A program made the translations under genes and the position numbers. A stretch of 54,506 bases of DNA. Source: Planctomycetota bacterium (GTDB lineage Bacteria > Planctomycetota > Planctomycetia > Planctomycetales > Planctomycetaceae). The notes below the pieces were generated by a model, which saw only the letters and a program-made list of their open reading frames with translations, was not told the DNA's origin and made no database searches. Where the stretch lies: assembly GCA_018242565.1 (NCBI GenBank), contig JAFEBR010000982.1, positions 1-54,506 of the forward strand, written 5' to 3'. Positions 22,823-26,814 of this stretch are shown one piece after another. Positions within the stretch are counted from its first letter, which is position 1. Every line of letters begins with the position of its first letter.

Positions 22823-23041
22823 ATGTTGGTTCTGTCCCGCAAAGTGAATGAAGAAATCGTCATTGGCAACAACATCCGCGTGTCGGTTGTCCGGATTTCG
22901 GGTAATCGCATTCGGCTGGGAATCTCGGCTCCCGACAACGTCTCGATCCGACGGGCGGAAGTCGCTTTTGAAACCCATGAGTTGCCCTGTGATTTGCACC
23001 ACGAAGAACTCGCCGAGATTGCAGAATTTGTACTCAGCTGA
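22823..23041 (+). CDS. csrA: Carbon storage regulator CsrA
   Basis: The 72-residue RNA-binding protein begins MLVLSRKVNEEIVIG and carries NIRVSVVRISGNRIRLGISAP and the conserved IRRAEV, all CsrA/RsmA hallmarks. It binds GGA motifs in mRNA leaders to control translation and stability. The ATG at 22823 is chosen because it gives the canonical MLVLSRK N-terminus and has AAAGGA 9 bases upstream; that GGA is itself a possible autoregulatory site. The in-frame ATG at 22814 would overlap the ribosome binding site. A terminator separates it from the signalling operon. The length is slightly longer than E. coli CsrA (61 residues). Confidence 0.95.
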   Translation: MLVLSRKVNEEIVIGNNIRVSVVRISGNRIRLGISAPDNVSIRRAEVAFETHELPCDLHHEELAEIAEFVLS

Positions 23042-23101: not shown

Positions 23102-23133
23102 GCCGGGTGAGCCGTGCTCACCCGGCCTTTTTT
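23102..23133 (+). terminator. Intrinsic terminator between csrA and the globin kinase operon
   Basis: A perfect 11-bp stem (23102-23112 with 23116-23126) and a CGT loop are followed by C and six T residues. It ends only about 17 bases before the start codon of the next gene. Confidence 0.93.
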
Positions 23134-23149: not shown

Positions 23150-24328
23150 ATGAACGAAACTCAGCAGTATCAGCGCTACCAGGAATTGCAGCAGTGGGTC
23201 GGCTGGACCGATGAAGACGGTCTGCGTGTGGCCGAGGCGGGACAGCTCGTGCGTCCCGCGCTCCCCGCCTTGATCGACGATTTCTATGATGAAATTGCCC
23301 GCCACCCTGACGCGCGGCAGGTGATCACCGGGGGCCAGCCTCAGATCGAACGCCTGAAAGCGACACTGCACACGTGGGTGACCGAGCTGTTTTCAGGTGT
23401 TTACGACGAAGACTACGTCGCCAAACGCTGGCGCGTCGGACACCGGCATGTCGAAATCGGCCTGAATCAGGTGTACGCCAATGCCGCGCTGGGCCGCCTC
23501 CGCCGCGGACTCGAAGCCGTGCTCGCCACGCAATTGAGCCACGATGCGGCGCGCCTGAATGCCTTGCGGCAGTCATTGATGACGCTGCTCGACCTCGACC
23601 TGGCCATCATCGGCGATGCCTATCAGTCGGAATTCACCGCCAAGCAGCAGCGCATGGAGCGTCTCGCCACCATCGGCCAGGTCGCCGGCGGCGTGGCGCA
23701 CGAACTGCGGAATCCCCTGAACGTCGTCAAGACCTCGGTGTATTACCTGCAGCACATTAAGCCGGCCAATCCGGAAAAAACCCGTGACCACCTGGAACGA
23801 ATCAGCCGACAGGTGGAAGTCGCCGACAACGTCATCTCGGCTTTGTCAGATTTCGCCAAACTGCCGATGCCGAACAAGCGCCCCACACAACTGGCTGCCT
23901 GCATCGACCAGGTCCTGAGCGCCGAGACCTTTCCCGAGAATGTCGAAGTCACAGTCTCGTGCCCGGCCAATCTGCCACTTGTGCTGGTGGATGACAAACA
24001 GTTGCGGATTGCGGTATCCAACCTGGTTCGCAACGCGCGTGAAGCCATGCCCGATGGCGGCCAACTGACGATCGAATGCCGTCAGTCGGATGGTTACGTG
24101 GAGATTTCGGTCTCGGATACCGGCGTGGGCATCGCCCCCGAGCACATTACCAAGATTCTGCAGCCATTCTTTTCCACCAAGGCGCGGGGCATCGGCCTGG
24201 GACTTGCATTGACCCGCGCGATCCTCGATAAAAACAGTGGCACGCTCAAGGTCGACAGTGAACTGGGCCGAGGCAGCACGTTTGTGGTGCGGTTGCTGCC
24301 GGCCCCGCCGGGTGCACTGGACACGTAG
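23150..24328 (+). CDS. Globin-coupled sensor histidine kinase
   Basis: The 392-residue soluble kinase has an N-terminal protoglobin sensor (about 15-155). RWRVGHRHVEIGLNQVYANA carries the presumed proximal haem His at about residue 100. The dimerisation helix has the phosphoacceptor His184 in GGVAHELRNPLNV. The ATPase domain contains NLVRNAREA, DTGVGIAPEH, FFSTKARGIGLGLALT and GRGSTFVV. There is no membrane segment, so it should sense diatomic gas (O2, NO or CO) through haem in the cytoplasm. It is the first gene of a four-gene operon; the next starts 13 bases downstream. No clear Shine-Dalgarno precedes the ATG, which lies right behind a terminator. Confidence 0.9.
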   Translation: MNETQQYQRYQELQQWVGWTDEDGLRVAEAGQLVRPALPALIDDFYDEIARHPDARQVITGGQPQIERLKATLHTWVTELFSGVYDEDYVAKRWRVGHRHVEIGLNQVYANAALGRLRRGLEAVLATQLSHDAARLNALRQSLMTLLDLDLAIIGDAYQSEFTAKQQRMERLATIGQVAGGVAHELRNPLNVVKTSVYYLQHIKPANPEKTRDHLERISRQVEVADNVISALSDFAKLPMPNKRPTQLAACIDQVLSAETFPENVEVTVSCPANLPLVLVDDKQLRIAVSNLVRNAREAMPDGGQLTIECRQSDGYVEISVSDTGVGIAPEHITKILQPFFSTKARGIGLGLALTRAILDKNSGTLKVDSELGRGSTFVVRLLPAPPGALDT

Positions 24329-24341
24329 CGTGAGGGAGTGT

Positions 24342-25121
24342 ATGGCAACGTCGAATCCTGAGATTCTCGTGGTCGACGACGACCTCGATACCTGCGAAAA
24401 TCTGCGCGACATTCTCTGCGATCTGGGCTACACCGTGCAGACAGCCCAGAGCGGGCCCGAGGCACTGGAACTGGTACGACAGACCAGTTTTGATCTGGCC
24501 TTGCTCGATTTCCGGATGCCGGGGATGGACGGCCTGGTGCTGTACCGCGAAATCAAACGCCTCAGCCCTTCGACTGTGGCCATCATCATGAGTGCGTTTC
24601 TGACGGCCGATACGATCGACGAGGCCCATGGCGCCGGGACCTGGAAAGTCTTGTCGAAACCGATTGACCTGGGGGTGGTGCTGCCACTGCTGGAAGAGGC
24701 CCTGTCCTGGCCGACGATCCTGCTGGTCGATGACGACCGGGATCTGTGCGCCAATCTCTGGGACGTGCTGCATGACCGGGGCTATCGCTGCAGCCTGGCC
24801 CACTCAGTACCAGCCAGCACACGTCTGATTCAAGAACGGCAGTTCGACGTGGTGCTGCTCGATCTGAAACTCCCCGAAGGGTCGGCTCAAGACGTCTTGC
24901 GCGCCCTGCACGGGGCCTATCCCGAAGCGAAAGTCGTGTTGATGACCGGCTTCCGGTCCGAGTTACAAACGTTGATTTCCGATGCACTCGCCGGCAGTGC
25001 TGACGCGGTCTGTTACAAACCGTTCGATGTCGACCACCTGCTGGGAACCATCACACAACTCATCAGCAGTTCCCGCGAACCGGAACCAGCGTCCCAGCCA
25101 GACCCCGCACCGGAATCATGA
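24342..25121 (+). CDS. Double-receiver response regulator without output domain
   Basis: The 259-residue protein has two receiver domains in tandem. The first (about 6-122) has acidic VVDDD, phospho-acceptor Asp56 in LLDFRMPG and Lys in LSKPID. The second (about 125-245) has LLVDDDRD, Asp174 in LLDLKLPEG and Lys in CYKPFD. There is no DNA-binding or enzymatic domain, so it probably relays or buffers phosphoryl groups between the operon's kinases and the ANTAR protein. The ATG at 24342 follows GAGGGAG; the longer frame overlapping the kinase gene is rejected. It overlaps the next gene by ATGA. Confidence 0.9.
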   Translation: MATSNPEILVVDDDLDTCENLRDILCDLGYTVQTAQSGPEALELVRQTSFDLALLDFRMPGMDGLVLYREIKRLSPSTVAIIMSAFLTADTIDEAHGAGTWKVLSKPIDLGVVLPLLEEALSWPTILLVDDDRDLCANLWDVLHDRGYRCSLAHSVPASTRLIQERQFDVVLLDLKLPEGSAQDVLRALHGAYPEAKVVLMTGFRSELQTLISDALAGSADAVCYKPFDVDHLLGTITQLISSSREPEPASQPDPAPES

Positions 25122-26227
25122 CGGCTTCTATCGCCCAGTCTGTGTTGATCATCGAAGACGATGACGACACGAGCCAGAACCTGGTCGACATCCTGGAACT
25201 CGATGGCTACACCGCCCGCACGGCCTCTTCGTTCGCGGCCGCCGTTGAGCACGCCGACTGGCATGACCTGCTGGCCATCGTTCTCGACCGCCGACTTCCC
25301 GACGGCAGTGCCGATGCGTTTCTGCCGCAGTTGCAAAGCCTGGCCCCGAGTGTCCCGATTATCATCATCACGGGGTCGGCCGACGTCGAGGGGACGATTG
25401 CCGCACTGCGCGCGGGAGCGCAGGATTACCTGATCAAGCCGATTGACCCGGACTTGCTGCGCGCCCGCCTGGCACGGATCGCCGAAAGCCGGCGCGACAA
25501 AGAGGAATTGAAACTCGCCCAGGAACGACTCCTGCAGTCCGAACGTCTGGCGGCGATCGGGCAGATGATGACGGGGCTGGCCCACGAAAGTCGCAACGCG
25601 CTGCAGCGCAGCCAGGCCTGCCTGGAAATGCTGAAACTGGAAGTAGAGGCACAACCGGTGGTTCTCGACCTGATTGCCCGCATTCAAAAGGCGCAGGACC
25701 ACCTGCACCAGTTGTACGAAGAGGTTCGGGACTACGCCGCCCCCATCCGCCTGAAACGCGAACTCCACGACTTGCAGGCAATTCTGCACGACACCTGGGA
25801 TCACATTTCCGCACTGCGAAAGTCGCGCGACGTGCACCTCGAATTCCACGCTTCCGAAGCCCACAGCTACTGCAGCGTCGACCGCTTTGCCATCGAGCAG
25901 GTGTTTCGCAATATCCTTGAGAATTCGCTCAGTGCATGCACTGACCCGGTCCGCATTCGGGCGACGTTCCAAACCACGTCACTGGATGGTGAGCCGGCTT
26001 GCAAGATTTCGTTGGCTGACAATGGACCGGGACTGTCTCCGACCGCCCGCGACAAGATCTTTGAGCCGTTTTTTACGACGAAAACCAAAGGGACCGGATT
26101 GGGCATGGCCATTGTCCGCCGGATCGTCGAAACACATTTGGGTCGGATTACGGTCGGCAGCGCTGGCCCCGGGGCAGAAATACTGATTATACTGCCTGCC
26201 CGGGAGTTACCAGGACAAAGATCATGA
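25118..26227 (+). CDS. Receiver-histidine kinase hybrid
   Basis: The 369-residue protein starts with a receiver domain (about 7-125; VLIIEDDDD, Asp57 in VLDRRLPDG, Lys107 in LIKPID). A short coiled coil then leads into a histidine kinase: His156 in GLAHESRNALQ, a NILENSLSAC N-box, DNGPGLSP, FFTTKTKGTGLGMAIV and a final GAEILIILPA. The receiver in front of the kinase suggests it is controlled by phosphorylation from another kinase, plausibly the globin kinase. There is no transmembrane segment. It is coupled by 4-base ATGA overlaps on both sides. Confidence 0.9.
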   Translation: MTASIAQSVLIIEDDDDTSQNLVDILELDGYTARTASSFAAAVEHADWHDLLAIVLDRRLPDGSADAFLPQLQSLAPSVPIIIITGSADVEGTIAALRAGAQDYLIKPIDPDLLRARLARIAESRRDKEELKLAQERLLQSERLAAIGQMMTGLAHESRNALQRSQACLEMLKLEVEAQPVVLDLIARIQKAQDHLHQLYEEVRDYAAPIRLKRELHDLQAILHDTWDHISALRKSRDVHLEFHASEAHSYCSVDRFAIEQVFRNILENSLSACTDPVRIRATFQTTSLDGEPACKISLADNGPGLSPTARDKIFEPFFTTKTKGTGLGMAIVRRIVETHLGRITVGSAGPGAEILIILPARELPGQRS

Positions 26228-26814
26228 GCCACAACCTTCGAATTGCCGTCGCCGACGACGAACCCGACATGCGGGAATACTTCCAGCGCATTTTGCCGAC
26301 GCTGGGACACAGCGTTGTTTCAGCCGCGAAGACCGGCAAGGAACTCGTCGCGGATTGCTTATCCCACCACCCCGATCTGGTCATCAGTGACGTCAAAATG
26401 CCGGAAATGGATGGCATTGACGCGGCCAGCGAGATTTATCGGCAAAATCCGGTCCCGGTGATTCTGGTCTCGGCGTACCACGATCCGGAACTGATCGCCC
26501 GGGCCGAGGCTGACCACGTCATGGCGTATCTGGTCAAACCCATCAAGAACGCAGACCTGGAGCCCGCGATCAATCTGGCCATGCGGCGGTTCGCCCAGTT
26601 CCAGGATCTGCGCAAAGAAGCCGCCGACCTGCGGCAGGCGCTGGCCGATCGCAAAATCATCGAACGCGCCAAAGGGGTGCTGATGAAGCGTGCGAATCTC
26701 GACGAGCAGGATGCGTTTCGCCGACTCCAGAAGCTCGCCAGCGAAAAGAACCGCAAACTGGTCGATATTGCCTCGATGATCGTGACGGCCGACGAAGCGC
26801 TCGACTTGAAATAA
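26224..26814 (+). CDS. Response regulator with ANTAR RNA-binding domain
   Basis: The 196-residue protein has a receiver domain (about 5-120; VADDEPD, Asp56 in VISDVKMPEMDG, Lys in LVKPI). A coiled-coil linker and an ANTAR domain (about 130-188; LRQALADRKIIERAKGVLMKR and DEQDAFRRLQKLASEKNRKL, residues split by the linker) follow. ANTAR proteins such as NasR, AmiR and EutV dimerise on phosphorylation and bind paired hexaloop hairpins to prevent transcription termination. It is the only output-bearing member of this operon, so the system should act through RNA. It starts in the stop of the hybrid kinase gene (ATGA). Confidence 0.93.
   Translation: MSHNLRIAVADDEPDMREYFQRILPTLGHSVVSAAKTGKELVADCLSHHPDLVISDVKMPEMDGIDAASEIYRQNPVPVILVSAYHDPELIARAEADHVMAYLVKPIKNADLEPAINLAMRRFAQFQDLRKEAADLRQALADRKIIERAKGVLMKRANLDEQDAFRRLQKLASEKNRKLVDIASMIVTADEALDLK

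Follow-up and report, generated by a model that had tools for sequence, protein, structure and literature searches.

A planctomycete operon that may couple a haem-globin oxygen sensor to an RNA-binding ANTAR regulator

A four-gene operon of kinases and receivers

The window, that is, the whole stretch of 54,506 nucleotides that was analysed (Planctomycetota assembly GCA_018242565.1, contig JAFEBR010000982.1), contains four genes on the same strand that encode a globin-coupled histidine kinase, a double receiver, a hybrid kinase and an output response regulator of the REC-ANTAR type (Table 1). The first three are of the types known as NmpU, NmpT and NmpS, respectively, in the soil myxobacterium Myxococcus xanthus. 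The junctions between the genes are, in order, +13, -4 and -4 nt, with both -4 junctions formed by ATGA overlaps. Upstream of the operon lie groES-groEL, followed by csrA; the first gene downstream is on the opposite strand. The four genes form a real, tightly packed operon, and their order is not due to chance because the same order is found in seven genomes (see below). Together, the products comprise six signalling modules, four REC and two HK, with the phosphoacceptor Asp present in all four receivers and the H-box His in both kinases. No DNA-binding domain was detected by Pfam in any of the four proteins, and no Rfam matches were found within the window. The coordinates, gene order, strand and junctions given in an earlier note on this DNA are accurate, and its domain assignments, including the lack of a DNA-binding domain and the occurrence of a haem-globin kinase and an ANTAR regulator in one operon, are supported by Pfam and the gene layout; its count of five receiver/kinase modules falls one short.

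Table 1. Genes, protein domains and a terminator-like hairpin at the locus (window positions)
Feature	Positions	Strand	Basis and details
csrA, RNA-binding regulator gene directly 5' of the operon	22823-23041	+	Pfam CsrA, 8.5e-22
Intrinsic-terminator-like hairpin between csrA and the globin kinase gene	23102-23133	+	11-bp stem, 3-nt loop, T-rich tail
Globin-coupled histidine kinase gene (NmpU/AfGcHK type)	23150-24328	+	
Protoglobin domain of globin kinase	23168-23632	+	Pfam, 7.6e-37
HisKA of globin kinase	about 23675-23863	+	Pfam
HATPase_c of globin kinase	about 23990-24295	+	Pfam
Double receiver gene (NmpT type)	24342-25121	+	
REC1 of double receiver	24363-24674	+	PF00072; phospho-Asp56
REC2 of double receiver	24717-25052	+	PF00072; phospho-Asp174
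Hybrid kinase gene (NmpS type)	25118-26227	+	
REC of hybrid kinase	25142-25471	+	Pfam; phospho-Asp57
HisKA of hybrid kinase	about 25559-25738	+	His156, H-box HESRNALQ; alignment of relatives
HATPase_c of hybrid kinase	about 25880-26203	+	Pfam
Output response regulator gene, REC-ANTAR	26224-26814	+	
REC of output regulator	26242-26571	+	Pfam; phospho-Asp56
ANTAR RNA-binding domain of output regulator	26623-26784	+	Pfam, 6.1e-21

The globin domain of the first kinase aligns without gaps to the globin structure of AfGcHK (5OHE; residues 10-160 on 9-159). The haem ligand His99, distal Tyr45 and phospho-His183 of AfGcHK (PMC8697598) correspond, with an offset of one, to His100, Tyr46 and His184 of the window kinase, and the alignment of relatives, which shows 11 globin kinases, has the haem ligand and the distal Tyr in every one of them. 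One further protoglobin place was found in the 9.3 Mb assembly. The plasmid collection yielded no match to the globin kinase. The double receiver consists of two Response_reg domains and lacks an output domain according to Pfam. The HisKA domain of the hybrid kinase scores 25.9 bits in Pfam, slightly below the 26.9 cut-off, with the H-box His in place.

The REC-ANTAR protein, the sole ANTAR place found in the 9.3 Mb genome, is co-linear from end to end with EutV (6WSH) and with PdtaR (1S8N), its closest solved structure, and on the strength of these alignments, it likely binds RNA. With a phosphorylatable Asp in its REC and the ANTAR domain behind it, it has the make-up of response regulators of the PdtaR/EutV type. 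In Anaerovibrio/Selenomonadaceae (L087, L094, L098, L100, L102, L103), a REC-ANTAR gene is located directly 5' of groES-groEL.

The distance between csrA and the globin kinase gene is about 1.1 kb or less not only in the window but also in L141, L143 (where the two genes overlap), L169, L170, L225, L230 and L231, that is, in about 8 of 30 loci, representing five lineages. With 5 to 16 csrA copies per genome, the chance expectation of such proximity is well under one, and 20 other csrA copies have no adjoining kinase. The csrA product may be a second RNA-binding protein belonging to the circuit. The hairpin between csrA and the globin kinase gene ends 16 nt upstream of the kinase ATG; in the same-genus genome G395, its stem is identical and its loop is changed, and in both genomes it is single-copy. 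It was considered as an ANTAR target and rejected, having a 3-nt loop and no hexaloop; no dual hairpin is present in the gap between csrA and the globin kinase gene.

Distribution of the operon and search for RNA targets

The complete four-gene operon is represented in seven genomes (the window; L141; L143, also L063; L148; L149; L066; L233), of which L141 belongs to the genus of the window and L233 to another family of the same class. Conservation of the gene order, which the earlier note had proposed to check, thus extends over two families and is not confined to a single strain. Close homologs of the globin kinase are encoded in 32 of the 170 genomes of the family (18 of 58 genera) and in 3 of the 392 genomes of a phylum-wide sample.

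The link between the globin kinase and ANTAR is modular rather than obligate because in many genomes of the family no ANTAR gene adjoins the NmpU-T-S or U-S genes (for example, L222, L226, L228 and L232), and ANTAR-kinase pairs without NmpU also occur among the relatives. Other inputs of the ANTAR-partner kinases include REC-PAS, PAS and MASE1-PAS. In L142, L144, L065 and L069, protoglobin-PAS or protoglobin-GAF is fused to the ANTAR-partner kinase, next to the REC-ANTAR gene; these loci lack a separate NmpU/NmpT pair, and one distant double receiver is encoded elsewhere in the genome of L069. In the phylogenetic tree, the ANTAR-partner kinases cluster together, separate from the globin kinases (100/100). 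Given the four-gene operon on the one hand and these fusions on the other, globin sensing and ANTAR output appear to have been connected in two independent ways, through the NmpUTS circuit and by direct fusion. Beside nmpU in L230 (7487-7906; genus g307), there is a receiver that is most similar to the REC of the ANTAR protein (61-64%) and lacks an ANTAR domain; an ortholog in G454 (L055) likewise ends early.

The canonical paired-hexaloop target (A1, G4) was not detected by a dual-hexaloop scan in the window or in the loci of its relatives. Across 1.7 Mb, the scan produced two matches, both in L092, and none in planctomycetes. The recovery of these two motifs of the L092 ANTAR locus indicates that the scan works. 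This locus is deltaproteobacterial, and the motifs (L092:7514-7558 and L092:11904-11945) are perfect paired hexaloops, the second one overlapping a terminator. No canonical target was found in 1.19 Mb of G426, which carries the four-gene operon; a single weak match in this genome was judged to be due to chance. A covariance model (R1) built from synthetic seeds missed both L092 motifs, which served as the positive control, and its matches in the genome, at chance level (E 1.5 to 7.6), are therefore uninformative.

Receiver specificity and the predicted circuit

Six receiver specificity positions, from the HK853-RR468 interface, were placed via the TM0468 receiver. At all six, REC1 of the double receiver has the same residue as the hybrid REC (DTNLDI in both), despite an overall identity of just 31%, and REC2 reads DLNLDV. 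The REC of the ANTAR protein (DMYFRI) is unlike REC1 and the hybrid REC at four of the six positions. Other receivers sampled from the same genome match this pair at three of the six positions at most. In most loci of the relatives, REC1 shares 4 to 6 of these positions with the hybrid REC of its own locus; in L067, L163 and L221, the number is 3. The hybrid RECs of NmpU-bearing genomes conform to the pattern [DE][TA]NLD[IVL], with no exception among the relatives. In genus g284, in a genome without NmpU, these residues have drifted (NAHVEI, DTNMEI), and another kinase must therefore supply the input. The respective g284 loci, L145 and L147, encode a REC-PAS-kinase and an ANTAR protein, with neither NmpU nor NmpT in the genome. 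From the specificity pattern, the globin kinase is predicted to phosphorylate REC1 and the hybrid REC, and the hybrid kinase to phosphorylate the ANTAR REC; conservation of the hybrid REC pattern in the presence of NmpU, and its drift in the absence of NmpU, count in favour of the wiring between the globin kinase and the hybrid.

A precedent is offered by NmpRSTU of M. xanthus, in which the protoglobin kinase NmpU, the double receiver NmpT and the REC-kinase NmpS are combined with NmpR, a DNA-binding regulator resembling NtrC (PMC6211767, PMC11841059). Phosphotransfer has been measured from NmpU to NmpT REC1 and to the NmpS REC, and from NmpS to NmpR only; NmpT serves as a sink for the haem-globin NmpU (PMC6211767, PMC11841059). 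The authors explain this fidelity by the specificity residues, which are nearly identical in NmpT REC1 and the NmpS REC and different in NmpR, and they model NmpU and NmpS as reciprocal, with NmpR active at low oxygen (PMC6211767, PMC11841059).

Both the specificity residues and the precedent of NmpU and NmpS favour a circuit that is predicted to be branched and inverted rather than a linear relay. We consider it probable that the operon encodes a planctomycete oxygen-sensing circuit of the NmpUTS type, in which an RNA-binding ANTAR output replaces the NtrC-like regulator. In the presence of O2 or with ferric haem, the globin kinase would autophosphorylate and pass the phosphate both to REC1 of the double receiver, acting as a sink, and to the hybrid REC, keeping the hybrid kinase off. 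When O2 drops, the globin kinase would stop, and the hybrid would autophosphorylate at His156 and phosphorylate Asp56 of the REC-ANTAR protein. By analogy with PdtaR and EutV, the phosphorylated protein would then dimerise and bind paired hexaloop hairpins in target mRNAs, altering termination or translation of low-oxygen genes. The sign of the response, with activity at low O2, follows that of the Nmp system and could differ. For the broader proposal, namely, that a haem-globin oxygen sensor acts here at the RNA level, with O2 depletion freeing the REC-kinase to activate an ANTAR antiterminator or RNA-binding protein, with csrA as a possible second arm, and with globin and ANTAR wired in at least two ways, we put the chances at about even.

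A linear multi-step relay from the globin kinase to the ANTAR receiver, as advanced in the earlier note, is probably wrong. Every component that such a relay involves is encoded within the one operon, and in the four loci with fused kinases, the globin sits on the ANTAR-partner kinase itself, so that AfGcHK-like behaviour would render ANTAR active with O2. However, no HPt or comparable domain is present to carry the phosphate on from a REC to the following His, the receiver of the hybrid precedes its kinase part (REC-HK, not HK-REC), the ANTAR REC diverges from REC1 and the hybrid REC in its specificity residues, and NmpU and NmpS work in a reciprocal manner in the homologue that has been studied.

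About equally unlikely, in our estimate, is that the wiring is as proposed and the signal read by the globin domain is NO, CO or the haem redox state instead of O2. AfGcHK also shows activity in its Fe(III) and Fe(II)-CO forms (PMC8697598), and PdtaS is inhibited by the gas NO, such that NO sensing is already coupled to an ANTAR regulator (PMC8131098), but PdtaS relies on a GAF dicysteine and not on haem, and the distal Tyr for O2 recognition is retained in the window kinase. Two separate pathways that are neighbours by accident, one consisting of the globin kinase and the double receiver and the other of the hybrid and ANTAR responding to a different signal, appear still less plausible: relatives do have NmpU/NmpT lacking ANTAR, as well as HK-ANTAR pairs that have PAS inputs and lack NmpU, but the hybrid REC matches REC1 at every specificity position, with the residues conserved where NmpU is present and drifting where it is missing, seven genomes keep the four genes closely spaced, and other relatives carry a fusion of globin to the ANTAR kinase.

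Relationship to known sensory systems

The haem-based oxygen sensors described so far work, to our knowledge, through DNA-binding regulators, c-di-GMP, chemotaxis or stressosomes. The earlier note had regarded haem gas sensing coupled to antitermination through a relay as an arrangement not previously described. This holds for the ANTAR output and for the direct globin-ANTAR kinases, which are undescribed as far as the open-access library searched shows (no paper in it mentions both 'ANTAR' and 'protoglobin'), but not for the system as a whole, which is already represented, with an NtrC output, by NmpRSTU. Under the circuit that we favour, oxygen may control gene expression after the start of transcription, and several genera would have connected the sensor part of an experimentally characterised relay to an output that binds RNA, in two different ways. 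The outputs of multi-kinase circuits would then be swappable while receiver specificity remains fixed, and the system offers a ready test of oxygen control via ANTAR.

PdtaS/PdtaR of Mycobacterium tuberculosis resembles the window system in that a cytosolic kinase governs a REC-ANTAR regulator, and differs in its sensor, a GAF dicysteine in place of a haem globin, and in operating in one step, without a REC-kinase intermediate (PMC8131098). EutV/EutW of Enterococcus shares the REC-ANTAR output, aligned end to end with 6WSH, and differs in being a two-component system that responds to ethanolamine and has known paired-hairpin targets (PMC3369931); no such target was found for the window system. 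AfGcHK of Anaeromyxobacter sp. Fw109-5 is similar in its gapless globin alignment and matching His/Tyr/His residues, and in both systems a two-receiver protein comes after the kinase; however, AfGcHK is known mainly as a kinase/receiver pair, and the gene for its NmpR homologue, an NtrC-like protein, runs in the opposite direction.

The closest counterpart is NmpRSTU. The first three window genes follow the nmpU-nmpT-nmpS architecture and order: a protoglobin-HisKA-HATPase kinase with the proximal haem-ligand His is adjoined by a protein of two receivers only, and the hybrid combines an N-terminal REC with a C-terminal HisKA/HATPase. As in NmpRSTU, REC1 and the hybrid REC are alike in specificity residues and the output REC is unlike them. 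The differences are the output, which is REC-ANTAR and putatively RNA-binding in the window versus NtrC-like in NmpRSTU, the arrangement of all four window genes in a single co-directional operon, and the proximity of csrA. Homologues of nmpSTU in Planctomycetes have been noted already by the Nmp authors (PMC6211767, PMC11841059). By its architecture, its gene order and this published statement, the window system classifies as a variant of NmpRSTU, and as a variant rather than NmpRSTU itself because its output is REC-ANTAR instead of NtrC-like. The system is, accordingly, not categorically new: it is a known sensor relay, with the output swapped for an RNA-binding one.
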